In this document: positions 2,946 to 59,098 of the stretch, in pieces | How the letters are laid out: every line of letters starts with the position of its first letter | Position numbering within the stretch: position 1 is the first letter of the stretch | From: Polytrichum commune | Lineage: Eukaryota > Streptophyta > Polytrichopsida > Polytrichales > Polytrichaceae | NCBI GenBank assembly: GCA_950295325.1 | Contig: OX485805.1 | Span: 44,354,758 to 44,418,757, forward strand | Direction: 5' to 3' | DNA length: 64,000 nucleotides | Program-made: the position numbers and the translations under genes | Notes under the pieces: model-generated | Database searches by the model: none | What the model was told of the DNA's origin: nothing | The model's input: only the letters and a program-made list of their open reading frames with translations

Positions 2946-3429
2946 AAGTCTTGCAAAACAAATGCTAGATACAATCCACTTTGAAGCGAAGGCTAGAAGA
3001 CATGGAGTATGCATGCATGTCAAGATATCTACACCCATATCCATATGTTAGCACTCCTACATACAACTTCCTAAACACTCCTGATGTTTGACTTACCAGA
3101 CTAGAATCGAAGTTTGTTGAATACTGCAGCACATCACCATCGACCCCTGCAACTCCTCCAACATTTTGAGAGTTGCTCCAACCAAATGAAACCTTATGTG
3201 AAGGATAAAGAAACACACATACACACACCAGACCACAAAGTACAGACGAGGGTCTGCAAGAACTTAGAAGGTGGAAATGGTCCACCGAGTCCAGAGGTTG
3301 AGTCCTCCTGACCTGGCTTGCTTGTTGAGTTCCTCAAGTCCAAGAACAGTGTCCGAGGAGGGTTTTGAGCATACTAGTCTGTCAAGATCCTAGTATTTCC
3401 AAGTCCAACCAGCTACATGTTGTGACCTC
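2946..3429 (+). repeat. 484-bp dispersed repeat, copy 1
   Basis: This stretch begins AAGTCTTGCAAAACAAATGC and recurs almost unchanged in the same orientation at 59099-59574. Similarity starts and stops sharply: the flanks CGTAAG on the left and GTGTGTTTC on the right are not shared. The sharp edges suggest a short non-autonomous mobile element or a recent duplication. I see no terminal inverted repeats and no convincing target duplication. Short frames inside it (for example 3114-3311) are present in both copies but look non-coding. Confidence 0.85.
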
Positions 3430-3881: not shown

Positions 3882-3909
3882 AACACTATATTCGTTAAAT
3901 TGAGACTTT
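3882..3909 (+). repeat. element P left terminal inverted repeat
   Basis: AACACTATATTCGTTAAATT followed by GAGACTTT matches the reverse complement of 21064-21091 over 28 bp. The next bases (CTCTAGTCTCAAATTAATATATGG) are shared with the MITE at 11379, which supports this as an element end. Confidence 0.8.
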
Positions 3910-4412
3910 CTCTAGTCTCAAATTAATATATGGATCAAACAACATTCCGTGTTCCGAAACTATATTGCGAACAATCTCAAATATATTATATGTTCTAATA
4001 TCCCAAATCTATGGGGTGTGGACATAAGCACATATGGTAGAGCACTCAACACCAACTTCATCAACAAAAACACTTTGGGTAGAGCACTCCAAACTAGTTT
4101 CACCCAAAAAACATATAAAATGATTTCTATTATTAGCATGGTCAATAAAATATAGACATTGCAACATACAAAGTACATGCAATAAATGCATTTTTCTTCA
4201 ATGGAAAATTTAGTCCCAAACTTAATAAAAAAATGAACTTCACAACTGTATTGAAATATAGTAAATGGATATTCATCCAACCCCAAACAATATAGCATTC
4301 GCAAGTTCTACCCAAATTTTGCCCCAAGTTTGAGGAGCACACATATGAGTAATATATATTCGTCGAATTACATATTACACTATAATCATGCTAACACAAT
4401 CCTACCAACTTC

Positions 4413-7400
4413 TCATTCAACGTGGGTTGCTTCTTCTGCGATCCGAGCAAGGTTGTCTTTTGCAAAAGTTATGTACTTTTGAGGGATGGACACTGATCCA
4501 CTATGATTTTTCCGTGGTTTCCATGCTATGAATATGGAATCTGTATCTACCCAAGATGGACCGTGCTCAGAATCCACCTTCCACCGAAAGTTAGGGTTTG
4601 TATCCCAACCTGTATAATGCCGAACAACATCTTCATTCCGTGCTGTCGGTCGGTAGTACTCTACTTGTATTTGTCGAAAATGAGGGCTGGAAGTTACAAA
4701 ATTTGGTTTGGACAAAGCTCTTGCCACCCACACTGGCTTTGCATATGTCTCATCTCCAGGACGCAAAATGAGCATATAACCTTCATGACAATCCACTGCA
4801 ATGCGGAAAGATAGTGGCGGACGACTACTAGCAGGCCCCACGTAATGGTCGTCCACATCAAACTCCTCTCGAACCTCTCCATTTCCCAAAAGACTAGCCT
4901 CCGAAGCTTGTACATTGACACGTGTTTGTGGCCAAAACCCATGCCTTAAAGTAAGGGGTGTATCTTGATGAAGGTTTGCCAAAGCGCCACGAACACGTGT
5001 CCAATATTGTATCCAACTTCCGTAACGAAGCCAACACGATCCACCAACATCCGCTACCCTCAAACTCTCCCAATATTGTATGAAGCCTGATATGCCTTTA
5101 CAAATGTCCTCCAAATTCTTCATTAGTATTGGTTTGCAAGGCTTAGGCTCTCCGTCAGGCAACATCATCCTTCCCTCCCCATCAACACGCCATACAAGGA
5201 GACCCTCCGGCGGGCTCCAGTCTTGTGACGTGCACAACAACTTGTATTGCATGGCGGGGATACCATCGTCACGCACGTAGAACCGAAATTGTTGTGCCTT
5301 CGTATGTCCGATCAATTGGTGAGCTCCGCTTCGAATATACGGTTCTATAAATGCCTTGAAGTCTGGAACCTCCTCGATCATATGGGGGATGACGGGAATG
5401 TTCTCCAAATCCATATACGACTTCATCAACAATGGGATTGTCGGAAAATCCTCCTCGCGCAACTTCATGCTCCACCGCCCAAAAGATGCATCGATATCGT
5501 CGTGCGTGTGGCCTAGTAATAGAAAGGACACAAAAACCTCCTTGAAAATGCCTTTCGCAACCAACAACGACCAATATGCAAAAACATATCTACTTTTATT
5601 GTCCTTCGCACAATTGTCCAATTGGACACGCAGAGTTGGGGGCAAATTCTTGGCAATCACATCTTTACTTGGTGGCTCCGGCAAGGAGTGCACGCATACA
5701 TCTCTTCCATCCAAGACCGCTTCATATAGAGGTGTTGATCCCGAGTTTTCAAATAACAATCTTGATGAATAGGACGGCGGTTTCTCCAAATCACGTAAAA
5801 GCTTTGCAAATGACCCTATCGTGTGGTTTGAATCCGCCGGATACAAATCAAGAGCATAATGAGCATACTTGACATCACCATGTCCATGTGCAATCATCCC
5901 TGTAAAGCCAACCCAATGGTTTAATATTCAACTATAACACCAAAAAATTCACATGGTGTACATCTATGGCCCCAAGTACAAACCTAAAGCACAAATTTGT
6001 GTTTAGGTAATGCAATGCAATTGTTATCGAAATCACCTGTAACCGATACAGGAAGCTTAAAAAGGCCGTCCGTGGCTTTGATTCGATTTGCAAAACATGG
6101 TGAGGCTGTTTTGGCATGGTCCATTTTGTCATGGATGATTGTAAGGACCTCCAAAGGCCTAGAGATCGACAAAGCTCTATTTGTGTAGTAATCATTACGG
6201 TGTGCCTCTTGCATGTTCACATGCTTGAAATAGTTCATTTGATGTGCGGCATAGGACTCTGTCCCCATCGTGTGTGCATCTCGAAGGCGTTTCAACTTCT
6301 CGCATTTGGAACAACGGGCAAATTTGTCGCCTCGTCTTTTTGTGATGTATTCGCTAAAGTGAGATTTTTTTATTGCACTCAGTTTCGACAACGAAATAGG
6401 GTCCAACCCAACCTTCTCGCCAACTGCGTTTACGTCCAACAATATGTCTTTCCATTTCGTGCCTGTAGGAAGAACCTTCTCCACAACATTTTCACCAGTT
6501 GCGAGTGTGCGTGTTTTGTGCAGCATTGCATCGGCAAGGGGGACAATGATGGTTGCCAGAGTGGCGGTTGCTTGTCTCGTTGCTTCCCTTGGTTTCTTTA
6601 AGCCCGTATTCCCATGGTGACGGGACCGGCGGCCTTCCTTGGCATACGCGGCTTGTCTATAAAATTCCGCTTTCGACACACCGTGAATGATGTACCATGC
6701 GGTACAACACACGTCTATGCTCTCAAGGGTGATGACCTTGCGACCCGCTCCGTTCACATGTATCGCCCTATGGACATCAAGCTTTTTGGTAGATCTTAGA
6801 CGGAAATCTCCAAGCCACATTTCCTCGCGGATGGCCTTCAATTTATCCCTTGGGAACAATTGGCAACAACGATGTACACAACAATCCTTTGTGGCAACTT
6901 CTCTAATGGACTCCTCACAAAGCAACCTTTGACGTTTACACTCATTTGCAGACGGAGTAGGACGTGCCAATGTATCGTACTTCCGTAGGCCTTTGCGTGG
7001 CCGAATGTTTGCTTGGAGCTCTTCTTGGATTTGGATGTGTCGTCGCTCGTGCTCATGCAAATTAACCCCATCAATTGTCACATTCCTCAACGGCCACCTT
7101 CGCAACGAGAACCTATGAGTTGGATTCACTTCAGAATGTACGAGTGATTCCAATATAACAACTCCAACGTCCTCGGTGCCAAGGGGGTTTTCATCAATGC
7201 AATCTTCTGGATGTGTGTTACGACAAATACCCTCCGCCATAGCAACTCCACTGTCATTAACAAGTACTACATCCAAATTCACCCATGAAGCTCGTGAAAG
7301 CCCAGCACATTCCACAGTGGGGCAAGAAGGGGCAGATGGCGAAGGACTCCCCAAGTCACCTTCATCTGCACTGTCATCAAAACTATCCTCCCCAACAATG

Positions 7401-7480
7401 TCTAGCTCATCCCCAGACGTAGATTGGGTGTTGCCCATGTCGTCAGAGAAGGAATCCCCTCTTCCACCAACTCCCTCCAT
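4413..7480 (-). CDS. DUF7869-like putative transposase (two exons)
   Basis: Exon 1 is 7480-6037 and exon 2 is 5899-4413. The 137-bp intron (6036-5900) has GTGATT at the donor and TTACAG at the acceptor, in phase 1, and joining restores VSVT-G-MIAHGHG. The product would be 976 aa. Three acidic motifs are typical of an RNase-H-like fold: IIHDKMDHA at the end of exon 1, QLDNCAKDN and GHTHDDIDASFGRWS in exon 2. They match what I remember of DUF7869 proteins. A basic and cysteine-containing region (CVHRCCQLF, FARCSKCEKL) precedes them. The start MEGVGGRG is chosen because a GTGTGTAG acceptor-like site lies just upstream and the frame before it looks untranslated. The frame is open throughout. A deleted derivative of the same gene lies at 21598-22070. 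The transposase role is inferred from the family pattern, the TIR context and the derivative. The N-terminal 150 aa are acidic and low-complexity. Confidence 0.75.
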
Positions 7481-7657
7481 TGCGCCTACACACATGGAAA
7501 GAATGTAAGGGTCCAAAAGAATCAAATATCGGAAAATGCAAGACACCATGATCAATGGGGACACCGAGGATGAAGACATTTCCAACACAACTACAATGTG
7601 AACTCCCAACACTGTGTGCAAGTCCAAAACAAGTTCCAGAAATTATTTTGGTGCGGG

Positions 7658-9132
7658 TTTGGGTCGACCGGCCCAAACCTCATAAAGGTCGGACTGAACC
7701 CCTAACACACTGGGGTAGGGGTTTGGGTCGACCGACCCAAACCTCACAAGGGTGCATCCACCCACACTAGGTAGGGGTTTGGGTCGGTCGACCCAAACCT
7801 GACAAGGGTCAGAAAAAAAAACCCTAACACACTGGGGTAGGGGTTTGGGTCGACCGACCCAAACCTCACAAGGGTACATCCACCCACACCAGGTAGGGGT
7901 TTGGGTCGGTCGACCCAAACTTGATAAGGGTCAGGAAAAAACCCTAACACACTCGGGTAGGGGTTTGGGTCGACCGACCCAAACCTCACAAGGGTGCATC
8001 CACCCACACCAGGTAGTGGTTTGGGTCGGTCGACCCAAACCTGACAAGGGTCAGAAAAAAACCCTAACACACTGAAATAGGGGTTTGGGTCGACCGACCC
8101 AAACCTCACAAGGGTACATCCACCCACACCACGTAGGGGTTTGGGTCGGTCGACCCAAACCTGATAAGGGTCAGGAAAAAACCCTAACACACTGGGGGTA
8201 GGGGTTTGGGTCGACCGACCCAAACCTCACAAGGGTGCATCCACCCACACCAGGTAGTGGTTTGGGTCGGTCGACCCAAACCTGACAAGGGTCAGAAAAA
8301 AACCCTAACACACTGAAATAGGGGTTTGGGTCGACCGACCCAAACCTCACAAGGGTACATCCACCCACACCACGTAGGGGTTTGGGTCGGTCGACCCAAA
8401 CCTGATAAGGGTCAGGAAAAAACCCTAACACACTGGGGGTAGGGGTTTGGGTCGACCGACCCAAACCTCACAAGGGTGCATCCACCCACACCAGGTAGTG
8501 GTTTGGGTCGGTCGACCCAAACCTGACAAGGGTCAGAAAAAAACCCTAACACACTGAAATAGGGGTTTGGGTCGACCGACCCAAACCTCACAAGGGTACA
8601 TCCACCCACACCACGTAGGGGTTTGGGTCGGTCGACCCAAACCTGATAAGGGTCAGGAAAAAACCCTAACACACTGGGGGTAGGGGTTTGGGTCGACCGA
8701 CCCAAACCTCACAAGGGTGCATCCACCCACACCAGGTAGTGGTTTGGGTCGGTCGACCCAAACCTGACAAGGGTCAGAAAAAAACCCTAACACACTGAAA
8801 TAGGGGTTTGGGTCGACCGACCCAAACCTCACAAGGGTACATCCACCCACACCACGTAGGGGTTTGGGTCGGTCGACCCAAACCTGATAAGGGTCAGGAA
8901 AAAACCCTAACACACTGGGGGTAGGGGTTTGGGTCGACCGACCCAAACCTCACAAGAGTACATCCACCCACACCATGTAGTGGTTTGGGTCGGTCGACCC
9001 AAACCTGATAAGGGTCAGGAAAAAAACCCTAAGACACTGGGGTAGGGGTTTGGGTCGACCGACCCAAACCTTACAAGGGTCAGACATAAACCCTAACACA
9101 CTAGTGGACAGGTTTGGGTCGGTCGACCCAAA
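7658..9132. repeat. array of 25 palindromes (TTTGGGTCG-NN-CGACCCAAA)
   Basis: Twenty-five copies of TTTGGGTCGACCGACCCAAA or its reverse complement with GT at the centre are spaced about 56-66 bp apart. Starts include 7658, 7722, 7778, 7844, 7900, 7964, 8020, 8084, 8140, 8205, 8261, 8325, 8381 and 8446, with the last at 9113. After the AC-centred copy the spacer reads CCTCACAAGGGTGCATCCAC. After the GT-centred copy it reads CCTGACAAGGGTCAGAAAAA and then CCCTAACACACTG. From about 8205 a 241-bp higher-order unit (four palindromes) repeats almost exactly at 8446, 8687 and 8928. The array starts about 180 bp in front of the DUF7869-like gene and lies between the two divergent transcription units, so it may be a binding-site or regulatory array. 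Open frames through it (VWVDRPK, LGRSTQT, FGSVDPN) are by-products of the repeat. Confidence 0.95.
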
Positions 9133-11378
9133 CCTCATAGGGTCAGACTCAAGACCCGCCAACACTAGTGTAAAGGTGAAGGTTCGCCCAAGTACACCAC
9201 AAAATCCGGCGTATAATGGGGCGGATATTGCGTGGTGTGTTGAATTTGAGCTCATTGCAAAGTTCACGGTGGGCTTGCATGGTGTGGATAGGTGCTCATG
9301 AACTTGCATGCTATGGATAAGTGCTCATGAACGGCAGCATGCACGAACCTTGAAGTACAGCTCCTACTAAGAGTTCTCTCTACGAATTCGACAGCGGGAG
9401 AAGAGAAAAAAAGGACCGACTTTTGGGGGGTGCGCCCCTTTATACTATCCACCTCCGCTTCCCAGACTTAGTCATTGGATGCCTTCCCCGCCTTCTTCTC
9501 TTGCAGAGGTTATTTCAAACCTCCTGACATAATTCCCCGTTTTCTGTTTATAGTAGAAAAATGCGCATCTATCAATGCCCCTCTGATACCCCAGCCGTCA
9601 TATGACTTAGTCTATGTTATTTAATCTATTTGTTTTGTTTTGTGTGGATATGACATACGCCATTGGGAGGAAGGGTGGCGGCCACATTAATTTTTTCAAG
9701 TATCATCAAGGTATATTTTAACCAATATGTAGACCCAAACACAACTCCATTCAATGCTTTCAAGTGTAAACCTATTTAGGTGGGGTTTGGGCCATTTGGA
9801 GGCTGCAATTATGAGAGAGTTTCCAAGGCTTGAGGCCATTGTCATGATGAATAGAATTATTTATTTGTCCCCCCTAAACCCTAAACCCTAGAACCTTGCT
9901 CTATTATCTCGCATGCAAGAGTGGCAATGACGAACGTATGTGGACGTTGTTAAGGGGATACTAACTACCAATGTCCCTTTCTAGTTCAATCTTTTAATGT
10001 TACTTGAATCCATCCTCAAGTTCACTTCAAGTTTACTAATGTGTGAGAGCAAAACATCCAAGATTGGACCCTAAACCCTTATAACATCCACAACATGAAA
10101 TACGCATTGACTAAATACAAAACCAATTAGGATATCATGTTTAAACGTCCCATATAACATATTAACATGATCAAGATTGTATTTACTATGACCTTCCGAT
10201 TAGACTCTTCTTCATATTATGCAAACAATATCTGTTATATCTTCCTCCATTATCTAATACACGTGGAGAGAACAATGAATAACAACATGATGTTGTGCTT
10301 CTCCGATTTACTTTTACATGACATTCCATATATTAAATACATCATGAACGATGGTTTATTAGCGACTAATATGTGATTCCCTAAAGTGAGCGAAACATCC
10401 AAAGTTGGACCCCTAGCCCCTATTAACATCCACAATATTTCATGTTATTTGAATAAACACACGACCAATCAATATATCGCGTTTAAACGTCTCGAATAAC
10501 AAATTAACATAATCAACATCGTCTTCACTATAACCTTCCTATAAGACTCTTCTCACGAGTAAGACAATGTTATACATTGACATTGGATAGATTAATATGT
10601 TATAACCCTATCTCCTATCTCCTAAACCCTAAACCCTAAACACCAAATGTAGTTGTGGTTCACTGATGCCCCCATATACAAACAACATCTATTTTATCTT
10701 GCGCCATCATCTAATATACATGGAAGGAACAGGGAATAACAACATGATTGCTTGAATGGCTTCATTTGATGTTGTGCTTATCCCATTTACTCTTATATCA
10801 CAATCTATATATTAAATAAATCATGAACCATGATTTATTGGCGACTATGTGATTCGTGAAAGTCACGATCTAAGGGATGTACTTAAAACTTGAGCATGTT
10901 CGCATTTTCAAATAAGGATCGTGCATTTCAAAACCCTTGCAAAATGCAGTTGGGGAAGGTATTCATTTATTAGGCTCCACACTCAATTATTCTAAATTGT
11001 TCCACATGTTGGGGGGTGTGGGTAATCTTTTTTTTTTCATTCAATATCGTGTGAATTGTTGGCATCATTGGTAAGGACTAAATGTGAATGATTACATTGT
11101 TAAATATAACGCAATTATATGGTTTAAATTTTCTAACATGCTCAAACAAAAGAGAAACCAATGCCTTCAATGATTTTGGAAAATTTAGGGTATGGTGTCA
11201 TGTAAGTAGGGGATAAGTATTAGTTTAGCATAAAGTTTTGTTGTAAGAATGCGCTGGCTATATAAATGGTTAGTTTTGTAGAATAACACATTTTATGTAG
11301 CACCTTAGGGTACTCCATAGTTCTTTTGAAAAAACTAATAAGGGTTTAGAGCAAGGTCCAAAAGAACCTAAACCCTAA
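9133..11378. other. intergenic part of element P; diverged tandem duplication
   Basis: I see no gene here. A diverged tandem duplication runs from about 10052 (ACATCCAAGATTGGACC) to 10860, with the second unit starting near 10392 (ACATCCAAAGTTGGACC). Both units share GTTTAAACGTC, the ATAACAACATGAT stretch and TTTATTAGCGACTA/TTTATTGGCGACTA. The second unit contains an extra ~150 bp. Short CCCTAAA tracts occur at about 9876-9894 and 10618-10640. They are interstitial and too short to be telomeric. Confidence 0.5.
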
Positions 11379-11624
11379 AATTCGCTAATTTGAGATTTTC
11401 TCTTCTCTCAAATTAATATATGGACCACAACAACATAGTGTAATGTTTGGGTCGTCCTACCTAAACCATCTTCATATGAGATCTTAATTGCGTTCTTGAT
11501 ATGAACACCCGCTTCAAAGTATTTGCATCTTACAACATTCTCCAATGTACGTGCGATTTTATCCATGTTCTTATATTTGTAACTTTCTCAAAATGCCGAA
11601 AAAATCCCAAATTAACGAATATAC
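11379..11624. mobile_element. 246-bp MITE of the element P family
   Basis: The left end ATTCGCTAATTTGAGATTTT and the following TCTCAAATTAATATATGGA match the left end of element P (3891-3935). The right end, CTCAAAATGCCGAAAAAATC followed by CCAAATTAACGAATAT, matches the right end at 21050-21088. The middle includes CACCCGCTTCAAAGTATTTG, also found near 20982. It is therefore a deletion derivative of element P lying inside element P. It includes one decayed palindrome (TTTGGGTCGTCCTACCTAAA near 11449). Confidence 0.75.
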
Positions 11625-12299
11625 CGATTAAAACAAATGCAGCCTACAAAATTAGTGACTTAGCCTATAAAATTTTGAAAGTGTAGGACAAAGAGCCTAT
11701 GGACAATTTAAAAACATAGGATATCAACCTATGTGATAAAAACATTTAGGAAATTTTGCCTAAATTTTTTTTAAAAGAAAGGATTTTAGCCATTCATCCT
11801 TCTTCAAATTGGGAAATTAGTTGGCCTAAGTACATATCTTTAGGCTATATCTTGCAGGAAGAGTAGAGGTTGAATGAGAACATGGTGAGAACTTTCACCC
11901 TTAAACTCATTTGAATTTTAGCAACCTTTCAAAACTTATAATCAACTCTTTAAAAAAGACTTGGTTAATCCTTGGCCTTCAAACGTGGTGAAAGGCTTAG
12001 CCTGGTTCAATTCCTGCCAAGGATCCCACTTAGTACTCAAATTTTGATTTTAAAACCTACAACATTAAAAGATATGAAGGATTTTAGCCTACTAAAATTT
12101 AGTTTTGAGGCAATTGGCGAGGAACTTACAAACTCAAAAGGTTTTCAACTTACAAAAAGTTGATATTGTAGAATGCAACCTATGCTATGAGGCAAATAGC
12201 CTATGTACTCTTAAAGAGGTAGGCCCGCTAAGGGTTTAGAGTCAAGCGTTATGATTTAGGTTTTAGGGTTCCCTGTAACCCTGTTTCCGTGGGTGCCCT
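11625..12299. other. no gene seen
   Basis: Repetitive AT-rich sequence with recurring AGCCTA/TTTAGCC motifs and short frames without recognisable content. It precedes the CT-rich leader of the plus-strand gene set. Confidence 0.4.
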
Positions 12300-12540
12300 A
12301 ATCCTGTGGGCACCCTATTCATGCGGTTGGGGGCCAATGCCCGAGGTAAACAAAACCCCAACCGTCGCATTTCTCATTTCTTTCTCTCTCTCTCTCTCTC
12401 CGCGCCTCGCTTGGAAGCGCCGCTTTCGCAAAGCGCCGCGGCGAATCAGGCTTGGTGTAGGTTAACCCTTCGTTCTCCCGCGTTCATTGCTTTCTTTTGC
12501 ATCTTCTTTTCCCTCCTTTCTTTTGCTCTTCAATAGAATA
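12300..12540 (+). promoter_or_regulatory. probable promoter or 5' leader of the plus-strand gene
   Basis: Base composition changes from AT-rich to a pyrimidine-rich tract, (TCTC)n at about 12370-12401, followed by GC-rich sequence. CT-rich initiator or Y-patch tracts of this kind are common at plant transcription starts. A good donor (GAAAG|GTATTG near 13171) and the acceptor directly before the ATG at 13754 imply a 5'-UTR intron downstream. The start site itself cannot be fixed. Confidence 0.4.
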
Positions 12541-12829
12541 GCCCTTGTGCAATCTTAGAAGTTAGGAAGAGTTTTGAAAGAAACAGAAACATACGGAGGA
12601 AGGTTTTAGAGCGTGAGAGTGAAGGAAGTTAGCAAAAGAGTGTTGAAGAGTATTGGAAAGTGCTGAAGGAAGTTAGTAGAACATTCGGTAGTAGATAAAG
12701 CTTCGGTTTGGGAGGTCCAGGTGTTTGTACTGGAAGTTTTAGGAGTGCTTGTGAAATTCAAGAGTTCTTTAAGAGTATCAAGAGTTGTTTGAGAGTTTTC
12801 GAAGTCGTTTGAGAGATTCAGTAGTTTTG

Positions 12830-13035
12830 TGAGGGATTCAGGAGTGGGTTTAGACATTTCGAAGTCTTTTGAGAGGTTTAGTAGTTGTGTGTGAGATTCA
12901 GGAGTTGGTTTGGACATTTCGAAGGCTTTTGAGAGGTTTAGTAGTTGTGTGTGAGATTCAGGAGTTGGTTTAGACATTTCGAAGTCTTTTGAGAGATTCA
13001 GTAGTTCTGTGTGAGATTCAGGAGTTGGTTGAGAG
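12830..13035. repeat. 60-bp minisatellite in the leader, 3-4 copies
   Basis: The unit GATTCAGGAGTTGGTTTAGA followed by CATTTCGAAGTCTTTTGAGAG repeats at 60-bp spacing, with shorter decayed units before and after (12740-13090). A minus-strand frame through it would give a 20-aa repeat (SKPTPESHTQLLNLS). It lies in the presumed leader of the plus-strand gene and is more likely non-coding. Confidence 0.8.
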
Positions 13036-13171
13036 ATCCAAGAGCTATTTGAGAGAGTTGATACTTGTTTGAAAGTTTCTCATTGAACTTTCTCACAGTT
13101 TGTTTGATATTGAGAATTATTGGAAGAACAACCTGCTCTACTCCAAATTGTCTGCACAACATCTTTGAAAG

Positions 13172-13753
13172 GTATTGTGTTTTATTTTAACCAATATGTG
13201 TTTGTATATTCACGGTTTTGTAGCATATTACACAATGCATAAGCATTGTATATGCTAGATGCCAAGTTTAAAAAATACATTAAAATAATACTGTTTGGGG
13301 AGACAACCCAAACACAGCCTCTTGTTTGGGTCGACCGACCCAAACACAACCCCAAACACAGCCCCTTGTTTGGGTCGCTCGACCCAAACACAAAACAAAG
13401 CATCATGTTTGGGCCGAACGACCCAAATATAACACAAATCATCATGTTTGGGTCGAACGACCCAAACTAAGTCTTCTAATTATAAACTCATAAAGAAATC
13501 CATGATTTTTGCATCAATATAAAATTCACATCAACCCAAAATAATAATCAAGGAATGCATGAAGGAAAAGTATCAAGGAATCCTGCATGTCACAAACAAT
13601 ATAAAATGCAAATCCACCCAATAATCACAACATTCTTATTATCATTACAAATGATGCTGAAATATATAAATACACAATCCACCTAAACCTATTCATGTCG
13701 TAGATGTTTGGGTCGAACGACCGAAACTAACTTTGCGCATTATTCTCTTACAG
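13172..13753 (+). other. 5'-UTR intron of the DGQHR/methyltransferase gene, with palindromes
   Basis: The donor AAAG|GTATTGTG and the acceptor TTCTCTTACAG|ATG bracket this stretch. It contains palindromes at 13325 (centre AC), 13369 (CT), 13408 (AA, one arm mismatch), 13447 (AA) and 13707 (AA, one mismatch), plus a decayed one at 13293. The rest is AT-rich. Confidence 0.6.
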
Positions 13754-16700
13754 ATGGCTCCAAAGAAAAGACCCGGCGAAAGGTGGTTCATGCCTGCGCC
13801 GGACATGTTGTGGCAGGAGCACGAAACCCCGCAGGATGACTCCTATTCCCCTAAGGACGGGCTTGTCCTCGCTTGGTCTATTCAAGTAGTCAAAGCCTCA
13901 ACATACAAAATGATTTTTGTTGTCAAGGTGGGAACCGTGGAGAAACACACCTGGGCGACTCTTACGGGATGGGAGGTCGCATCGGTACAGTCTCTTGGAG
14001 ACTATACCGACGTCATCCTCGAGAACTCGGCTGTGCAGAACGCGCATATGTTCATGCACCAGTTCTCCGAGCCTTTCGACGCACTCTATGCAAGAGAGTC
14101 CTGTGTCGAACCGGAAGTTATCAAGCCGGAGACAATATTTATCGATGGGAGTACATCGAATACCAAGGTCTCAAGCCGGTTCACAAAACTAAAACATGCA
14201 ATAACCGTGCTGAACAGGGGCCTGCAAAGCAAAACCAAATCACAGCAACCTGTGAGGCGGAAAGCTCCCACAGAGGAAGGAGCAGGGTCGTCAAGACCTC
14301 AATCGGTGAGGATGCCGCTTCCAGTACCGGCTGACTCGCGTAGGACCACTCCCTCCCAAACACCTACGAATAGTGAGACCCCTACACCTTCCGGGAGCCG
14401 TCAAACAACTCCATCCAAGAGGGCGAGAGAGTCATCTGTGATGACTGACGAGCCAGTCTCACCGGAGTTGCGCATGCCGAAGCCCGGCGAAGAGGTGGAT
14501 GCAGGGGAGCTGCAGAAAATCGTGAACAATTTCACGACGAAATGCTCCCACTGTTTTTTCATGGGCAGGGATTTCAAGTTCGACGTGAACATCAGCCAGT
14601 GCCATCTAGCGCCACCGGAGAAGTGTGTCCGGGCAAAGGAGGACGCCTACGTTGACTGGATAATCGCGCAGATCGTTTGCGAGCAGTTTAAAGACGACAG
14701 GCAAACGATTGTAGTGATGCCACAGGGTCTCAAGAAAATGCCTACACCTGAAATGTGGCCAACAATTCAGAAGGGCGATTTTTGGCTGATGGACGGCCAA
14801 CACAGCGTGGAGGCATCCAAGAAAATCCAACTCATGAATGAGTGGGACGATCCCAACAATCAGAAGGAAAAGCTGAAGGTTTGGAAGGCACTGGTGGTGT
14901 GGTCTGACGACGAGACCAAGCTCAGCGACATCTCCCGGTACTTCAATATGGGAAACAATAAGAGGGCCTACCAAGCTTCTTGGATAAGGAATATCATGGC
15001 CTCGCGGGAGGTGTGGGAGTTCTATGGTAGGCCTCCCAAGGAGAGGGAGAATGCGAAGGACAAGAATCCCAAGTGGGAGGTGAGTATTGTTTGGGTCGAC
15101 CGACCCAAACTCCTGGTGCAGTCTTGTGTTTTTTTTAGTTTGGGTCGATCGACCCAAACAACTGTTGCAGTCTTGTGTTTTTTTAGTTTGGGTCGATCGA
15201 CCCAAACAACTGTTGCAGTCTTGTGTTTTTTTTCAGTTTGGGTCGACCGACCCAAACTCTTGTTGTAGATGTTGGTCATGATATGGTTTGGAAATCACAT
15301 GTACTTAACTAACACGCATTCAAATGTTCTGTTTTGTTCACGTGCAGAATTTCAAATACCAAATGATCAACAAATTCTCCTCCATTGATAATTCGAGCCA
15401 CAAGCAGAAGAAATACAGCGACCTCAAGGGTAATTTACTTGATTACAGCATCGGACTCAGTTTGGAGGAAGTGGAAAACCGTGTTTGAAAAGCACGAGAC
15501 GGGGGATTTGATCGACCCCGACACTGGCATTTTCTTCAGCCAAACCTCGCGCTTCAAGCAGATGAAGCCTCTCGTGAGAGAGTTCTTTAGAACTCTTCAA
15601 GGGCTGTCAGAGACGGAGGTGGAGAAGGCGGCATCGCACATCCTGCACGTGGCACCCACGGCCAAGAGGTGTTGGGTGCACCCGAAGATTGTCTTCGTAA
15701 AGCCCAAATCCTTCGTTCCTTCATGCTACACCATGAAGGAATGGACGGAGAACAGGAAAAAGAAGACGACTATCGTGCAGGAGCTGCATAAATTGGTGCC
15801 AGAGAGGAATATTGTCGTAGACGGCGAGGTTCATGGGGCTAACTGGAGAGCATTCAAAGATGAATATAAGTTCACCAGTGCCTCCATGGCGGCTCTAATA
15901 AGGGAAGCGGGGGACGACTTCTTGCGGGCCAAGATGGTGAAAGGTGGGAAGAACCGGGCGCTTCCGGATCACACAGCGCGTGCGTTCTCGAACTTCATCA
16001 AGGAGAAGAAGATTGTCCAGTTTGAAGGGGACGCCTACTTCAACCTTGTCACCTTCGAGCCTTTGAAAATTCAGGGCTGGCCAGGTCAAGACGCCAGAAT
16101 GGCGATAAGGACGAAAGCAAAGGACCGCTTTCCTTTTGGGATGATTGATTGTAGAAATATTCCTGGAAGCTCATTTGAGGGCACGATGAGCACCCTTTTC
16201 TACGACCCCTTCTTAACTAAGTTCGTCGATTATGCAAGCCCTAAGTTCAGGGAGGTAGATATCTGGCTTTGGATAGTCGAGGATAGAAGGGCGGAGCAGG
16301 TGTACGAGCTTGTCCGGAAACTGCAGCCGGAGTATGCAGTGTCCAAGTCTCACTACATCGCCGCACCGGCGGAGGGGGCTTACACGACGTTGAAGGACAA
16401 GAAGACCAAGTTCGTCAACGTCTTGTGTTTGTACTTCGTGTACAAAGCGAAGTTGCTGAAGGTGCCAAACCACCCTATATCCCGGATGGACAAACTCTTC
16501 CAAGTTCCAGAAGGGTTGGGTGCGAACAAGTGCCTCTACGACGAGGCTAAATACGCGAACTATCCTGCAGATGAGCTGCGGATGGAATTTTACATGAGAA
16601 TGATGAGGACGCTGACGAGGAGAGGGGACTGCATCTTCAACGTCTTCGGAGGCTCAAAACCTGTCTATGCTGCTATGGTAAGTGACTTTCTATAGCTCGT

Positions 16701-18325
16701 AAGCAGGTTTGGGTCGACCGACCCAAACTAGGCTCTTTGCAGGTTTGGGTCGACCGACCCAAACTACACATTGTATTTAGTCTTGTTTATGTGATTGCCT
16801 CGACAAATTCTAATTTCCCTATAACTTGGATTGTGTAGATGTCGGGGCTGAATATATACTCCTACATAGAGGATGGCGATCTGCCATTTTACAGGGTGCA
16901 GAAATCGCTGGCGAAGAAGATGGACATCCTCGATTGGATCCCGGGTAGCTACGTCGACGAGGTTGTTCAGGGTGGCGAAAACCCTCTTGATAGGGTGAGG
17001 CGCATCAACCCGGAGGAAATGGCCATGAGGGCCACGACCCAAGTTCCCGAACCTCTGGTCGGGTTGCATCCGGGCAATCCGTCCCGCACAGAAGGTGGCG
17101 AGGTTGAGGAGGAGGAGGAGGAAGAAGAGGAACACGAGGAGGCGGAGAAGAAGGCGACGTCGAGGAAGGGGCAACGGGCTTCACGCAAGAATCCGAAGCC
17201 CCTCAACGGACGAAGGCGATGCGGGCGGCAACCCCGCAGAGTAAGCTCGTGCCCGTCCTGACTGTGGACGATGCACGGGACATGTACTCCAGGGACGCCA
17301 CCGCGACGTTCAAGGAGAGGAGGAAGTTAAAGGGGAAGAAGCTGTATGGCGACTACTCCGTGGAGGAGACCATTGCCATAAGTAGTGAGGACGACGATGA
17401 CATTGAGCTCGCCAAACGGCTAAGATCAGATCCCCCGTCCCCGACAGCATTCGCTGGCATGGTTAGGGTGAAGCCCGAGGTCCTGACTGTGGAGGAGGCG
17501 AACGAGAAGATGAGGAGGGACGAGGAGCAGCGAGTCCGCCTGCAGAAGGCTGCCGCAGAAGAACCCTCAATGCGGAACGAGGTCGCAGAGCTGAGGGCTC
17601 TCCTGTTGGAGCAGGAGCGTCAAAGGGCGATGGCCCAACCTCCGTCCCACGCCGACTTGATATCACAAGTGATACAAGGAATGTGGGCGCAAGGTTTGGT
17701 GGTGGCTCCTTCCAGCTCCTTCCCGCACTTGCCCCCCGGCTTCCCTCCGCAGAGCATCCCTCAGCAGCCTGTGCCGCAATCGTCTTTCAGCTTCCAGCAC
17801 TTGATGCAGCCCCACCAAGTTCCGTACGCACCGGTCCAGCAAGTGGATGACCCCAACATCTGGCGCGTCTCTGGAGCCTCCTCCCCTTTGGGCCCTCCAC
17901 CACTTCGGCCCCCCATAGTCATGGCGCCACCCCACCAATCGGACGACCCCAGGATGTTTGGGTCGACCGACCCAAACCCACCATCCACTGTAGTGTCCGA
18001 AGGGCCCTCTCCAGATGCAGGACAGTTTGGGTCGGGCGACCCAAACCCCGTTGCAGCGCAGTCCTCCCTTGACCAACATGGGTGTCAACTAGACACGGCC
18101 ATGCTAGATGTTGAAGGCCTGCAAGGGCCTGGTGATACCTCTACTCCTAACCAAATCGATGAACCCATGCATGATGCACATGCGGAGATTGGTTTAGGAC
18201 AAGGGCCTGATGCCGATCGTTTGCAGGAGAAGGTTCCTGACGTCGTCGGAGAAGGCGGTGGCGAGAGAGGCGGGGCAGCGGGGACGGTGGAGGCTTCCAC
18301 ATCGTCGAGACATGACCAGGGCGAG
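13754..18325 (+). CDS. DGQHR/ParB-like plus methyltransferase-like protein, multi-exon
   Basis: The start is the ATG directly after a CAG acceptor. Exons are A 13754-15079, B 15348-16679, C/D 16839-18325. Donors GAG|GTGAGT, ATG|GTAAGT and GAG|GTAATA and acceptors GTGCAG and TTGTGTAG are all in phase 0. Exon A ends with FWLMDGQHSVEASKKIQ and a later SRYFNMGNNKRAYQAS, resembling DGQHR/ParB-like proteins. Exons B and C contain FGMIDCRNIPGSS, then TRRGDCIFNVFGGSKPVYAA, then MSGLNIYSYIEDGDLPFYRV. This has the order of a beta-class amino-methyltransferase (motif IV, later motif I), but DPPY reads DCRN and FxGSGT reads FGGSKP, so activity is doubtful. Exon C has an E-rich stretch. Exon D is proline/glutamine-rich and contains two palindromes in frame. 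The reading frame changes near 15430-15480 and near 17150-17220. These are either frameshifts or features my model misses. The last exon probably continues at 18817. Confidence 0.6.
15090..15256. repeat. four palindromes in intron A/B
   Basis: Copies start at 15090 (centre AC), 15139 (AT), 15187 (AT) and 15237 (AC), about 48 bp apart, each followed by ACTGTTGCAGTCTTGTGTT or similar. The AT-centred copies are perfect 20-bp palindromes (TTTGGGTCGATCGACCCAAA). They fill most of the intron 15080-15347. Confidence 0.95.
16708..16763. repeat. two palindromes in intron B/C
   Basis: AC-centred copies start at 16708 and 16744, separated by TAGGCTCTTTGCAGG. The host intron is 16680-16838 and is only 159 bp long. 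Confidence 0.95.
17957..18045. repeat. two palindromes inside coding exon D
   Basis: Copies at 17957-17976 (centre AC) and 18026-18045 (centre GG) lie within the open frame and are translated as FGSTDPN and FGSGDPN. Both keep the frame open. Confidence 0.9.
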
Positions 18326-18816
18326 GTAATACACTGAGCCCTCCCAGTTTGGGTCGACCGACCCAAACTTCCTGGGTCATTGTCTTGTTGGCGTGGTCGT
18401 GTCCCCCATGCTAGGAGGAAATGCACACCCCCTGCCCCCCCTGGTCTACACTTGCTCCCCCTCCCCCCAACGTGCCCCCCCGCGATCCCCTTCGTCTCAC
18501 CTGCATTCGACTACGCTCGACCTTGGCGGCGCGCAACCAATTTTGTAGATGTAGAATTAGGATAGTGTGAATGCCCTCGTTCACCGCGCCCCCCCCCCCC
18601 CCCGAATCAAATTGTACATAGAGATTTGTAAAAATAAAATTATTATTTTTGGCGCCCATATGTTTGCATCCGTGTCCCAATGTATGTTGTTCCCTTGTAT
18701 GTTTTTGTTGCCACCAATGGTCCAATTCTTCTTGTGTTTGCACAAAATTTCCGTTCTGCTTGAGATGGACATAGCATAACATAGTCCTCGCCGCCTTCTC
18801 TCGCTCGTCGCCGCAG
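18326..18816 (+). other. intron D/E with palindrome and poly-C run
   Basis: The donor GAG|GTAATA and the acceptor GCCGCAG|GG are both phase 0. One AC-centred palindrome lies at 18348-18367. A C-rich stretch ends in an uninterrupted C run at about 18590-18603. No other feature is visible. Confidence 0.55.
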
Positions 18817-19629
18817 GGTTCGGAGCATAGCGTCGCGGCTCCCCACCGATCCTCTCCGAGGAGTGTGGAAGACAGCGCGGTGGTCCCCCCGATTTTGCCC
18901 TCGCCACCTTCGCCTCCCAAGACCCGGTTCTTGGTGCTAGACCTCAACGGGGTCCTTGTCCAGTGCGTGCATTGTCCGAGGGTCCCAACGGTGCCTTTCT
19001 GCAAGCCCGAGGACGCCAACTACGATGGACCCCCCGCGTACATCAAAAACAAGCTAGTGTACCTCCGCCCGTGGCTTCGGCGCTTCCTACAGGTCGCCCT
19101 ATCCAAATGGTGGGTGATCATTTGGAGCTCCATGAAGTCCGAGAATATCCAGGCCGTCGTGGAGTTCATCTTCAAGGGACTCCAACCCCCGTGCTTGGTC
19201 CTAGGACATGATTCTTGTAAAACATTGTACACCCCCAAGGGCAGGGTTGTGAAGAAGCCCAACAACCCCGCCGTAAACCAATTTCTTAAGGTCTTGAAGC
19301 CAGTCGTATGGGACCAGCGTCCGACCATGGTCGGCTGTCCCTACGACGTTCGCCCCACCCGTGACAACACGTTGATGGTGGACGACATCGCTTCCAAAAA
19401 CATTTTGAACCCGACCTCCAACTTCATCGTTTGCCCCACGTGGACGGTCGAGAAGGTCCGAGACCGCTTTTTGTTAGACCTACTTAAGTACATTCAAACG
19501 CTCGTGGGGAGCGGACTACCCGTGCCCCGGTTCCTTAGTTGTAATCCGATAGGCGAAAGATACATGGATCCGAAGGACTATATGTACAGAGAGTTGTACG
19601 CTCACGCGAAATATAATAAACTCATTTGA
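18817..19629 (+). CDS. FCP1/HAD-like phosphatase domain (probable last exon of the same gene)
   Basis: After the CAG acceptor the frame reads GSEHSVAAPHR and stays open to a TGA at 19627-19629 (270 aa). It contains RFLVLDLNGVLVQ, then LRPWLRRFLQVAL, WWVIIWSSMKSENI, VLGHDSCKTLY, DNTLMVDDIASKNILNP. This order matches plant NLI/FCP1-type HAD proteins (Pfam NIF). In active FCP1 enzymes the first motif is DxDxT/V. Here the second Asp is Asn (DLNGV), as in a plant subfamily I remember, so catalysis is uncertain. The splice phase fits exon D (...DQGE + GSEH), which would fuse this domain to the DGQHR/methyltransferase-like protein. It could also be a separate gene with its own start. It is probably a captured host gene in element P. 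Confidence 0.65.
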   Translation, partial: GSEHSVAAPHRSSPRSVEDSAVVPPILPSPPSPPKTRFLVLDLNGVLVQCVHCPRVPTVPFCKPEDANYDGPPAYIKNKLVYLRPWLRRFLQVALSKWWVIIWSSMKSENIQAVVEFIFKGLQPPCLVLGHDSCKTLYTPKGRVVKKPNNPAVNQFLKVLKPVVWDQRPTMVGCPYDVRPTRDNTLMVDDIASKNILNPTSNFIVCPTWTVEKVRDRFLLDLLKYIQTLVGSGLPVPRFLSCNPIGERYMDPKDYMYRELYAHAKYNKLI

Positions 19630-19748
19630 GATACTACATGGTGTGCCATTGTGTGTGATATAGTATGCCTCAATTGTATATCGATTTTCTCATGCTCCCC
19701 CCCTGCCCCCCTCCCCTTGGGTTTTGTTTGTTTTAATTTTGCCATCAG

Positions 19749-20550
19749 CGTTTGGAGCCCTCGATTGAGATCGTCAGCGAATAAAACTTGGGGAGCTTCT
19801 TCTACGAGACCGTCTACGATGCCGCATCCACCATCGACTACTCCAAGGAGCCTCTTGACGCCGGCGTCGTCGATAGCCCCCCACCCAAGCAAATCTTCCG
19901 GCGATCTCCGTCCCCGTCGCCGCTCAAGGGCATAAATCGCAAATGCGTCCGGACGTCCCCCTCTCGGCCCGGCGGCAGTAGTACACCTCAACGGCGGCTG
20001 CGGATGGACGCTCGGCCTACGAAGAGTGGCACCCTTCCTATTCCTTTGCGGGACGCATTGCCCCTCCTCGCCGACTCCGACGGGAACGCCCCCGGTGACA
20101 AGGTGAACCCCCCCCCCCAAAACATGGTTAACCGCGCATTACAATCATCCGGCACTTAAAAAATGAACGTGTGACACGTTTGGGTCTTCCTCCCTAAACT
20201 AACACGTGTGTTCTTGCATTCACGCGTTGCAGGTTGCTCCCACCCGTAGACCTATGCGGGCTAGTGCGTCCGTCGAGTTGGAGCGTTTCTACTCCATGAC
20301 CAGAAATGCAAGACAGTCCACTTCATCGTATTCGAATTCTTCGTCGTATAATTCGGGCGGCCGACGGAATCCAAAATGTGTTATTGATGGCGGTCACCCC
20401 AAGAATGGCTATAGTCGCGGGGCGGAGATTTTCAGGAATGTTGAAGCAATGCGAGCAAAAGAAGCCGTAGCAAAAGAAAAAGAAAAAAAAGAAAAAAAAG
20501 CAAAAGAAAATGAAGCAAAAGAAAAAGAGGTAGTCTCCGAGGCTAGATAG
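19749..20550 (+). CDS. two-exon ORF with lysine/glutamate-rich tail, unknown function
   Basis: Exon F (about 19790-20100) reads FFYETVYDAASTIDYSKEPL and ends GDK|GTGAAC. Exon G starts after CGTTGCAG at 20233 (VAPTRRPMRAS) and ends at a TAG at 20550, both phase 0. The C-terminus is AKEKEKKEKKAKENEAKEKE, a charged, probably helical tail. I cannot place the 5' start: an in-frame TAA lies just before the FFYET motif, so an upstream exon or a separate short gene must be assumed. A decayed palindrome (TTTGGGTCTTCCTCCCTAAA) lies in the intron at 20179. No family is recognised. Confidence 0.45.
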
Positions 20551-21063
20551 GCCATAGTAGGCGTAGGGTTTTGGGCCATAGGCAAGAACATTTTGGGTCG
20601 CACTATCCAATGGATGTGTTGTGTTAGCATGCTATGCATTTTACATGCCACACTTTGTATGTTTTTTTTTTGCAATAATATAAGTGTCACATGATTTCCC
20701 CTTCCATATGGTCTAAGGTTTGGATTGCCCTACCTAAACCATCACAAATATGAGTTTGGAATATTTTGTATGTTATATTATATTGGTTCACATATTTCCC
20801 CTTCAATATGATCTATGGTTTGGATTGCCCTACCTAAACCATATTCATACAAGTTTTTGTGCGATAATATGAATGTTTTAAGATTTCCCCTTCAACTTGG
20901 CCTAAGGTTTGGATTGCCCACCCTAAACAATCCCAAATAGTGAGTTATTAACGGGGTTCTTGTTCTAAACACCCGCTTCAAAGTGTTCGCATCTTACAAC
21001 TTTCTCCAATATGTGTTCCATTTATCCTTGTTCTTATTTCTGTGAATGTCTCAAAATGCCCAA
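20551..21063. repeat. 3' region with ~100-bp diverged tandem repeat, 3 copies
   Basis: Three diverged units carry GGTTTGGATTGCCCTACCTA or close variants at about 20716, 20818 and 20908, each preceded by ATTTCCCCTTC. This core looks like a decayed palindrome (TTTGG...CTAAA). The segment from 20970 (CACCCGCTTCAAAGTGTTCG) to 21063 is shared with the MITE at 11379-11624. Confidence 0.7.
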
Positions 21064-21091
21064 AAAGTCTCAATTTAACGAATATAGTGTT
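21064..21091 (-). repeat. element P right terminal inverted repeat
   Basis: AAAGTCTCAATTTAACGAAT followed by ATAGTGTT is the reverse complement of the left end at 3882-3909. Confidence 0.8.
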
Positions 21092-21597
21092 ATTAGGTGA
21101 TTTGAGACTTTCCATGGACTTAGATAAACATATGAATGACAACAACACGAAGTCGTCCTAAACATAGGCTACGGTATGTTGGCAAGCTATATATTATTAG
21201 TCCAATCCCAAAGTTAATGATTGGCCAATATAAAATTACATTAGCTAGAGCACATTAGCTAGAGCACTTGAAACCTACTACAACATAAAATCAAAGAAAT
21301 CCATGCATTTTAAATATAGAATAAACCCCAAAGATAGGATTTATAAATGAATATCAATGCAACATAGGAGTTTTATCCCAAAGAAGTAATAAATTAAGTA
21401 CAATATTTAATGGATATTATATATCAATATTCATCCGACCCCAAACACAATAGGAATCGTAAGTAACCCAAAGTCTAGTCCAATTGTGTTGAACGCACAA
21501 TGCACATAGACTTACTAGTAGTTTATTATAATTTTGAACATGCTATATTTATTGCAATAGGTCAAGTACAAAAATGTTGAATATTATTGGTGGTAAT

Positions 21598-22070
21598 TCA
21601 TAACCAAACAATTTGACTTCTACTAAGTTCCCATTGGCTCGATTCACCCGTGAGGCGAGCAAGGTTGTCTTTTGCAAGTGTTATGTACTTTTGTGGGATG
21701 GATAGTGACCTACTATGATTCTTTCGTGGTTTCCATACTATGAATATAATATATGCGTTTATCCAACTTGGACCATGCTCATAATCCACCTTCCAACAAA
21801 GATTATGATTTGTATCACAACTTGTGTAATGGTGGGTCATATATTCATTACACATTGTTGATCGTAGTTCTCCAAGGATGACAATACCAACATTCCCATT
21901 GCCAAGTGGATTTTGGTCAACACAATCATGTGGGTCGGTATTACACAAATATCCTCCGCAAAATGAACTCCACCATCATTAAGAAGGACCACCTCTAAAT
22001 TAACCCATCCCAATCTTGAGAACCATATATGAACGTTGGAGAATGGGCTCCATTAGTATTGAAGGCAAAG
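21598..22070 (-). pseudogene. internally deleted DUF7869-like gene remnant
   Basis: The minus-strand frame joins the N-terminal motif CNTDPHDCVDQNPLGNGNVG (compare CRNTHPEDCIDENPLGTEDV in the full gene) directly to the C-terminal motif SWINAYIIFIVWKPRKNHSR (compare SWVDTDSIFIAWKPRKNHSG). The whole core with the acidic motifs is missing, so the copy cannot encode the putative transposase. The same two flanking motifs in the complete gene are about 2.4 kb apart. Confidence 0.8.
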
Positions 22071-22094
22071 GATTTTCCACATGCCCTACACACA

Positions 22095-22619
22095 AGTAGG
22101 AGACAAGGAGGAGGCAGAGGACATGGAGGAGGACAACATTGTTTCCAATGACACTACAATTTCATTTAGAGAGCAAAGGAAGCTGAAAAGGAACAAGTTT
22201 TATATTGAGTAGGTAGTGGAGAAGATCATCACAATCTCTAGTGAAGACGAGAACGATAGGAGCTTGCAAAGAAACAGAGGTTTACCCCCCTCCCTTTTTT
22301 CCTATAGAATTCACTGGTGTGGTGAGGGTGAAGCCAAAGGTGTTTTACAGTGGAAGAGAAGCAGTGCATCTGTCCTTAAAAAATAGAGGCCCAAGAACCT
22401 TCAATGTGGAATGAGGTGACAAAGTTGGGGCTTTGCTCCTAAACCATGAGCAGCAATGGGCCATGGCCCAATCACCTTCGAGTGCTTACATCATCACACA
22501 TGTGATATAAGGCATGTGTGCGCAAGGCCTGGTCGTGGATTCATTGAGTCCCTTCTCTCACTTGCCTCCTTGGTTCCAAACATAACACATCCTACATCAA
22601 CCCTTCTCTTCTCGTAGCA
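22095..22619 (+). pseudogene. remnant of the plus-gene exon D, 5' part
   Basis: The stretch follows 17290-17800 closely enough to align by eye. GTGGTGAGGGTGAAGCCAAA matches GTTAGGGTGAAGCCCGAGG. AGCAATGGGCCATGGCCCAA matches AAAGGGCGATGGCCCAACC. GATATAAGGCATGTGTGCGC matches GATACAAGGAATGTGGGCGC. It carries several frame-breaking changes and a stop (ATTGAGTAGGTAGTGG). It ends exactly where the outer hAT element begins and resumes at 39654. Confidence 0.75.
22612..22619. repeat. 8-bp target duplication, outer hAT, left
   Basis: TCGTAGCA directly before the CAGGGTTGTCTA end matches CCGTAGCA at 39654-39661 in 7 of 8 bases. Eight bases is the usual hAT duplication length. Confidence 0.8.
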
Positions 22620-23282: not shown

Positions 23283-23905
23283 TCAGCCCCCCCGTCCGCC
23301 TCCGTTCCCAACCCCCGTTCGCCCCCGTTCCCCCCCGTCCGCTCCCGTTCACAATCCCCGTTCGCCACCGTTCCCCCCCGTCCGCTCCCGTTCCCAACCC
23401 CGTCCGCTCCCCCCTCTCCCGTCCGCCCCCCCCCCCCCGTCCGCCCCCCCCCCCTCCCCCGTCCGCTCCACCCCCCTCCGTCCGTCCGCCCCCCCCCCCT
23501 CCCCCGTCCGCTCCCCCCCCCTCCGTCCGCTTCCCCGTCCGCCCCCCCGTCCGCTCCCCCCCGTCCGTCCGCTCCCCTTTCCGCTCCCCCGTCCGCCCCC
23601 CCGTCCGCTCCCCCCCTCTGTCCGCTTCCCCGTCCGCTCCCCCCCGTCCGTCCGCTCCCCCTTCCGCTCCCCCGTCCGCTCCCCCGTCCGCTCCCTTGTC
23701 CGCTCCCCCGTCCGCTCCCTTGTCCGCTCCCCCCCCCCTCCGTCCGCTTCCCCGTCCACTCCCCCTTCCGCTCCCCCCCGTCCGCTCCCCCCCCCCGTCC
23801 GTCCGCTCCCCCCCGTCCGTCCGCTCCCTCGTCCGGTCCCCCCCCCCCCCCTCCGTCCGCTCCCCGTCCGGTCCCCCCCCCCTTCCGTCCGCTCCCCAGT
23901 CCGAT
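23283..23905 (+). repeat. C-rich CCGTCCGC array, inner hAT left
   Basis: Degenerate repeats of CCGTCCGCTCCCCC and CCGTTCCCAACC run for about 620 bp with long C runs and almost no G runs on the plus strand. Proline-rich frames through it are by-products. The reverse strand is G-run rich and could form quadruplexes. Confidence 0.9.
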
Positions 23906-23920: not shown

Positions 23921-24150
23921 TGAGGGTTCAAGGTGCCATTTTTGCCTCCAAAGACATAGTGTGTCTCAAGTCTTTTGATTCTCCTTTGAGGAGTGAGGAT
24001 TGAATGCGTGAGACCCGAATGCAGTGGATACTTTGTCCAATCTAGTGACTGTGAATTAGGGTTGCCCTTGTGGCACTCTTGAACAGGACCTAGTATGCGA
24101 TCAAAGTTACTTGCTCTAACTTGTTTTTATTTGCAGGTTTTGTTGAAGTT

Positions 24151-30559: not shown

Positions 30560-30829
30560 CTACCAGCGCTCACGCAGAGGCCAGTTGACTGGGCGCGTCA
30601 CAAGGAATATGCCAAAAAGGCAATATGCCACGTCACAAGGGAACGGGTCCACGTGGATCACACCCACAAACAGGTCAGTAAAAAAAATATAAAAGGATCC
30701 CAAAAAAGGGATCCTTAACTCCTCCGAGCACCCCGCTAAACCCCGCACTCTGTAGTAGAGGAGGGTCGTCCGGGCGCCCACAAGGAGTGGAGTGGGGTAT
30801 GTAAGTGGTCCTCCACTTATATACCCCTC
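30560..30829. other. spacer upstream of the RING gene
   Basis: Contains two similar ~20-bp stretches, CCTTCGAGCACCCCGCTA near 30546 and CCTCCGAGCACCCCGCTA near 30721, flanking ~170 bp that includes GGATCC-AAAAAAGGGATCC. A TATATACCCC stretch at 30818-30827 could be a plus-strand TATA element, but no gene follows it. Confidence 0.35.
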
Positions 30830-31560: not shown

Positions 31561-32037
31561 CATACGTCCGCTCCCGAGTTCCTTTGAATTTGCACTTTTT
31601 AATTTTTTTTGGAAGTTTGGACATAGTCTCGGTTTTTTGGCTCTCAAAAATTCATATGAAGTCCAAAAAATGATTTCTTGGTATCCATGGATAGGTAATG
31701 AAGTCCTCTACATGAATATGCAATAATATTTCTACTGCACATTCCCGCGTCCCTCCATCCGCACCCCATCTAACTTAGGCCCTTTGCAAATAATATATGT
31801 GACACTAAATATCATTACCGGTGTACTTATCCACACAAAACTAATGAAGGATCCCTCAAGCAACAAAGTAACCAATGTAGTATGATGACCAACAAATTAT
31901 AACCCTTATGGAGACAACGATGTACAAGTAATGACTTTATTATTGCGACGACGGTACAAATGCCCTTTATAAATCACATACATGAACAAACCATGCACGA
32001 TTTAATATTCCACTTCATTCCGTCAACTTGACTTCCG
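31561..32037. other. no gene seen
   Basis: AT-rich spacer between the middle array and the 186-aa ORF; no repeat or motif was recognised. Confidence 0.4.
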
Positions 32038-58885: not shown

Positions 58886-59098
58886 TCTGCAGGACATGAT
58901 GCATACATGATGAATTGAAGATTCCAATCAGTTTCTGGTCCTTAAGTCGATTCTCGAGGAGTACATGATAATCAAAGACGTCATACTACGCCGTTCCAAG
59001 GAAATTACACTGCTAATTATGAGGTGCAGGACCCCTGACCTATCGTCGACATTCATATCATTTCCTAAGCTTTATGAACTAGGGTTCCTTCATTCTGG
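58886..59098 (+). repeat. 213-bp direct repeat, unit A1
   Basis: TCTGCAGGACATGATGCATA ... CATTCTGG is repeated at 59573-59786 with about three differences. The dispersed 476-bp repeat lies exactly between the two units. Confidence 0.9.

Follow-up and report, generated by a model that had tools for sequence, protein, structure and literature searches.

Which protein, if any, recognises a palindrome that recurs some 40 times within a single transposon-like element? The question is raised by a 64,000-nucleotide stretch of Polytrichum commune DNA (assembly GCA_950295325.1, contig OX485805.1, positions 44,354,758 to 44,418,757 of the forward strand), referred to here as the window. Within it lies a 17.2-kb element, element P (3882–21091), bounded by the perfect 28-bp inverted repeat AACACTATATTCGTTAAATTGAGACTTT, and a first-pass annotation made from the letters alone had described a family of palindromes specific to this element. 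We propose, giving the idea an even chance of being correct, that the palindromes are 22-bp operator-like sites for a dimeric protein encoded by the element, most likely its ParB/methyltransferase-like accessory protein, through which the non-coding DNA of the element would be controlled.

The core of the palindrome, the 20-mer TTTGGGTCG-NN-CGACCCAAA (TTTGGGTCGNNCGACCCAAA), has 40 matches in the window when up to two mismatches are allowed (36 exact, three with one mismatch and one with two). All of them lie in 7658–18367, and no match was found in 100 dinucleotide shuffles of the window. The first-pass annotation had counted at least 39 copies, 25 in a tandem array and 14 outside it, and had found them confined to element P within the 64 kb. 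This confinement is borne out, with 40 matches in the element and none in the rest of the window, and the 39 copies prove to be exactly those with no more than one mismatch, which are the 39 sites counted below. The 40th match (20-mer start 11446, two mismatches) falls inside a small related copy (11369–11623) that itself lies within element P. Arms of 9 bp had also been described as nearly invariant; the near-invariance holds, but the arms are 10 bp long, with an outer G and C both retained in 38 of the 39 sites, and the conserved unit is the 22-bp GTTTGGGTCG-NN-CGACCCAAAC. The 14 sites outside the array share no consensus in their flanking sequence past these 22 bp. No other clustered palindrome family was seen in the window in a scan for perfect arms of at least 9 bp, judged by eye. 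The exact 22-mer is absent from IMG/VR, and the exact 20-mer occurs in one place in a prokaryote set of 84,980 species. An element-specific cluster of sites is confirmed as real within the window.

A comparison of arms with centre, suggested in the first-pass annotation, found the arms constrained. In the 14 sites outside the array, departures from the consensus affect 3 of 280 positions in the arms and, with AC taken as the consensus centre, 9 of 28 in the centre (P = 2e-8, with the sites in local tandems not independent of one another). AC and GT form one unoriented centre class because they are reverse complements, the same site read from opposite strands. This class accounts for 32 of the 39 sites: every one of the 25 array sites and, where a free centre would give 1 in 8, 7 of the 14 others (nominal P = 0.0007). 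Twelve of these 14 have A as the first base of the centre. The centre is therefore tolerant rather than neutral, and the earlier description of it as freely varying stands only in so far as it is looser than the arms. A symmetric site whose arms are constrained and whose centre is looser remains the pattern that a dimeric protein would be expected to select, as had been suggested from the start.

The tandem array (7657–9133) holds its 25 copies of the 22-bp palindrome at two per 120-bp unit, with AC and GT centres mostly alternating. When three edge half-units are excluded, none of the 44 site columns varies, compared with 13 of the 76 spacer columns (P = 0.002); with the edge half-units included, variable columns number 1 of 44 in the sites and 34 of 76 in the spacers. 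The CpGs of the array are concentrated in the sites (50 of 56), where both CpGs of each site are kept. Protection of these CpGs was considered and rejected because composition accounts for their scarcity in the spacers, which are as poor in GpC (5) as in CpG (6), against 62.5 expected.

The same arms bear on whether the sites could instead act as RNA hairpins in transcripts of the element. Three canonical sites each fold as a 9-bp stem at −13.2 kcal/mol, and of the four changes seen in the arms of the 39 sites two would still allow a G-U pair. The other two, however, disrupt pairing, and no compensating change was seen. All 39 sites also keep the inner G and C whose place would be in the loop of the RNA, and the one diverged sequence that was folded is weak (−2.1 kcal/mol). 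Because of the invariant loop bases and the weak fold of the diverged sequence, we consider a hairpin function extremely unlikely.

The position of the sites relative to open reading frames (ORFs) provides a second line of evidence. The array begins 30 bp from the 5′ end of the open frame of a putative transposase gene (4413–7627, − strand; start codon not fixed), which consists of two open stretches, 4413–5897 with a DUF7869 domain (PF25273, E = 1.2e-39) and 5984–7627. Five further sites precede the accessory gene (13324–13727). Four of them occupy 13324–13467 (22-mer starts 13324, 13368, 13407 and 13446), and the fifth (13706–13727), which carries one arm mismatch, is separated by 26 bases from the putative start codon at 13754. 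Four sites (15089–15258) fall in the first predicted intron of this gene and two (16707–16764) in the second. Of the remainder, two are read in frame in an ORF at 17219–18337, as FGSTDPNP (17956–17977) and, with the centre GG, as FGSGDPNP (18025–18046), and one (18347–18368) sits directly past the stop codon of that ORF. In all, seven coding-like stretches, amounting to 49% of element P, contain two of the 39 sites and leave 37 outside; this count treats as non-coding the mechanical ORFs that cross part of the array and part of intron 1.

Canonical sites are internal, at 3.8–14.5 kb from the left end, and those close to the ends are diverged only. Six degenerate relatives with four or five mismatches in 20 start at 4073, 20178, 20591, 20718, 20818 and 20907, all within element P, where simulated sequence would lead us to expect 0.15 matches with five mismatches per 64 kb. 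The left subterminal one (4073–4094, five mismatches) is 191–212 bp from the left end. On the right, sites at 20178–20199 (four mismatches) and 20591–20612 (five) are followed by three of the GTTTGGATTGCC...CCTAAAC class (20718–20928), the last of them 163–184 bp from the right end. The chance of a site with up to five mismatches in 300 bp is about 0.0005 (4000 simulated stretches), a figure to be read in the knowledge that the ends were examined post hoc. The small copy at 11369–11623 (+ strand) is element-like: it combines sequence from the two terminal regions of the family and has one degenerate site at 11445–11466. The versions near the element ends and in this copy are less symmetric as well as diverged, and could be a transposition version of the internal palindrome.

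These subterminal versions are why the main rival explanation assigns the sites to the DUF7869 transposase itself: the diverged end copies would serve transposition, and the transposase would regulate itself through the array that precedes its gene. A mark for the element's own transposase had also been raised in the first-pass annotation. The start of the array so near the transposase frame, the diverged sites at similar depth from the two ends and the degenerate site retained at the matching place in the small copy all favour this. So do CACTA elements, among which the 20.5-kb Tgmt* has been described with palindrome-forming subterminal repeats (PMC2613891). Element P resembles the CACTA elements Spm/En and Tgmt* in having element-specific repeated motifs, which in those elements are bound by an element protein. 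TnpA-type repeats are subterminal, however, whereas the canonical sites of element P are internal, with some in predicted introns of the accessory gene, only diverged forms lie near the ends, and no 3-bp target duplication was found. We judge it unlikely that the transposase is the binder.

The explanation that we favour, and infer to be the best one, gives the sites to the accessory protein, a dimer of which would occupy the array upstream of the transposase gene, the palindromes upstream of its own gene and those in the predicted introns of that gene. The bound protein would mark the non-coding DNA of element P and set the expression or the chromatin state of the element, in the manner of VANC on VANDAL21 and TnpA on Spm/En, and it would possibly shield the element from host silencing. 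Tandem duplication and homogenisation would have multiplied the sites. VANDALs are Mutator-like elements. VANC21 is reported to bind the motif YAGTATTAY, which occurs in tandem-repeat clusters upstream of VANA21 and in introns and is rare in other elements (PMC5735166), and to induce loss of methylation along the element (PMC5735166, PMC10398659). Like VANDAL21, element P repeats a short motif in non-coding DNA, placing it before the transposase gene and in introns (predicted ones in element P), frequently as tandem repeats; within the window its motif is specific to the element.

The candidate gene lies on the + strand, opposite the transposase gene. Its first predicted exon (13754–15079) contains DFWLMDGQHSVEASKKI, with the motif DGQHS, which resembles the ParB_N motif. 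A second (15348–16677) holds the methyltransferase-like region, whose terminal stretch RRGDCIFNVFGGSKPVYAAM resembles motif I of N4/N6 methyltransferases. The third starts at 16839 in a frame that is open to 17261, and is overlapped by the ORF at 17219–18337, which is in another frame. Splice sites were judged by eye, and the predicted introns are 15080–15347 and 16678–16838. The reading frame of exon 2 shifts between 15431 and 15451, where a 19-base GT...AG interval coincides with the change and would be either an extremely short intron or decay; the frame changes here and near 17219 may represent unusual introns or decay of the gene.

A ParB-like motif and a methyltransferase-like motif in one gene recall a published group of algal transposons. 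The 21.5-kb Sola1-1 of Ectocarpus is described as encoding, on the strand opposite its transposase, a protein of 1104 aa in which a ParB-like domain is combined with an N4/N6 methyltransferase domain, and similar proteins of green and red algae are cited in the same report, which refers to Iyer 2011 and Petroll 2025 and puts forward binding and modification of their own transposon as a possibility (PMC12477816). The relevant passages of that report give no target sites for these accessory proteins (PMC12477816). Element P is likewise a putative giant DNA transposon whose accessory gene lies opposite the transposase gene and combines the two kinds of motif, but its domain calls are at the level of motifs and its catalytic motifs are degenerate. 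By analogy, element P is an element that combines an accessory gene like that of Ectocarpus Sola1-1 with a VANC21-like layout of sites.

The algal domain pair also supports a different use of the same protein, in which it would load at the palindromes as ParB does at parS and methylate the surrounding DNA of the element (N6-methyladenine, 6mA, or N4-methylcytosine, 4mC). The DGQHS motif of exon 1 fits this, as do clustered palindromes linked to a gene with a ParB-like motif. The outer GTTT/AAAC of the site presumably also resembles the parS consensus. The site of element P differs from the bacterial system, however, in its 22-bp length with a 2-bp centre, and no Pfam match to the CTP-binding ParB_N or to a ParA-type family was found among the eight proteins scanned. 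Profile alignment with hhalign used as yardsticks 11 bacterial ParBs and 15 methyltransferases, the latter kept from 23 candidate ORFs in which motif IV had to precede motif I within 260 residues. Against the ParBs the accessory protein scored no better than controls (P = 0.55). The RRGDCIFNVFGGSK stretch aligned to methyltransferase motif I with P = 0.0076 and a probability of 5%, compared with 0.066–0.43 for controls (one reversed, three shuffled); as 20 comparisons were made in the set, this value fails correction, and the methyltransferase match is therefore suggestive only. In PADLOC, MTase_II matched residues 378–419 with E = 0.038, but the unrelated family DUF3780 scored E = 0.043 on the same protein. 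Neither of the canonical motifs, [DNS]PP[YFW] and FxGxG, occurs in the exons read, so that catalysis is doubtful in this copy and DNA modification is the weaker reading. The idea of modification sites, raised in the first-pass annotation, is accordingly weak for this copy, and we hold parS-like loading with methylation to be quite improbable. A motif search of the first set of methyltransferase loci found no fusion of ParB with a methyltransferase.

Control of the element by a dimer of the accessory protein must itself be set against several results that weigh against it. The first-pass annotation had named a DGQHR/ParB-like and methyltransferase-like protein; the motifs are present, but the family assignment is not supported, with no significant match in Pfam, PHROGs, NCBIfam or PADLOC, a negative ParB profile test and similarity at motif level only. 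AlphaFold, run without an alignment, gave mean predicted local distance difference test scores (pLDDT) of 36.3 and 34.5, and no DNA-binding fold was seen. No relative of exon 1, exon 2 or the DUF7869 protein was found in IMG/VR, nor any relative of the ParB-like or methyltransferase-like regions in phages. The VANC21 motif, in contrast with the palindrome, has 9 bp in one orientation and is not palindromic. Finally, the array contains four stretches of 241 bp that are identical even in their spacers; recent homogenisation therefore contributes to the invariance of the sites, and tandem homogenisation may account for part of that invariance in the array. In addition, VANC proteins carry DUF1985/DUF287, for which there was no Pfam match among the eight proteins scanned. 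Searches of solved structures returned nothing credible (best E 1.2, 0.2 and 1), and Rfam gave no match at gathering score.

Taken further, homogenisation suggests that the sites could be a by-product, a minisatellite unit that happens to bear a palindrome and has spread by local duplication and gene conversion with no binder involved. The identical array stretches count in its favour, and 25 of the sites are in one array with eight more in two small tandems. Against this, the separate clusters have only the 22 bp in common, with no consensus in their flanks, and within the array it is the spacer columns that vary and the site columns that do not. We consider a by-product very unlikely.

The nature of element P as a whole is best explained as a giant cut-and-paste DNA transposon, judging from its sequence features. 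Its left terminal inverted repeat (3882–3909, + strand, beginning AACACTATATTCG...) is complementary at 28 of 28 positions to the right one (21064–21091, − strand). ATTA stands directly before the left repeat and directly after the right, at both flanks of the maximal terminal repeat, and is a possible 4-bp target duplication; the left copy sits in a 12-bp tandem duplication. Sola elements have been described with 4-bp target duplications (PMC10741241), which in Sola2 cases are AT-rich (PMC3627910). An AT-rich 4-bp duplication of element P would fit this superfamily; DUF7869 is the only transposase-type family found, in a comparison that included no Sola profile. A literature search on DUF7869 found no paper. 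Membership of CACTA/EnSpm was considered because the ends contain CACTA, located 2 bp inside the terminal repeat, and was rejected because the 3-bp duplication was not found: with the boundary set there, the flanking triplets are AAA on one side and TTA on the other. The element also contains an ORF (18865–19629, + strand) with an NLI-interacting-factor phosphatase domain (FCP1-like/NIF-like; PF03031, E = 3.9e-13), probably a cargo gene.

Abutting the right end of element P, 21092–22602 is a decayed, internally deleted relative. It matches the element in five blocks at 60–75% identity (to 4054–4341, 4402–4661, 7149–7286, 11380–11435 and 17288–17769), while none of eight control stretches matched. 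No block covers a region with canonical sites, and no site with up to five mismatches was found in the relative.

Elsewhere in the window, two repeat copies that are 95% identical over 484 aligned columns (2945–3428 and 59098–59575) lie near its two ends, outside element P. Long GC-rich tandem arrays of the CCCCGTCCGC type occupy 23287–23903, 30824–31583 and 37754–38713, and the first of these adjoins a probably hAT-like ORF (24121–27348). There are also plant-type telomere-like TAAACCC stretches, which together with the character of the proteins would suit a streptophyte alga or a moss.

Accessory genes of the ParB/methyltransferase kind have already been published in elements of brown, green and red algae, together with the proposal that their proteins bind and modify their own element (PMC12477816). 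What element P supplies is an explicit candidate target, a clean 22-mer in about 40 natural copies. A bolder and rather unlikely form of the idea is self-tagging, in which a horizontally acquired ParB/methyltransferase-type protein would recognise the roughly 40 palindromes in promoters, introns and coding sequence, label the element as its own and shield it from host silencing, uniting parS loading with VANC-like anti-silencing in a plant/algal counterpart of both. If the accessory protein does bind the sites, they would offer a basis for developing a chromatin tool with sequence specificity, and element P would represent self-recognition of a whole transposon via clustered palindromes, by a protein unlike VANC.

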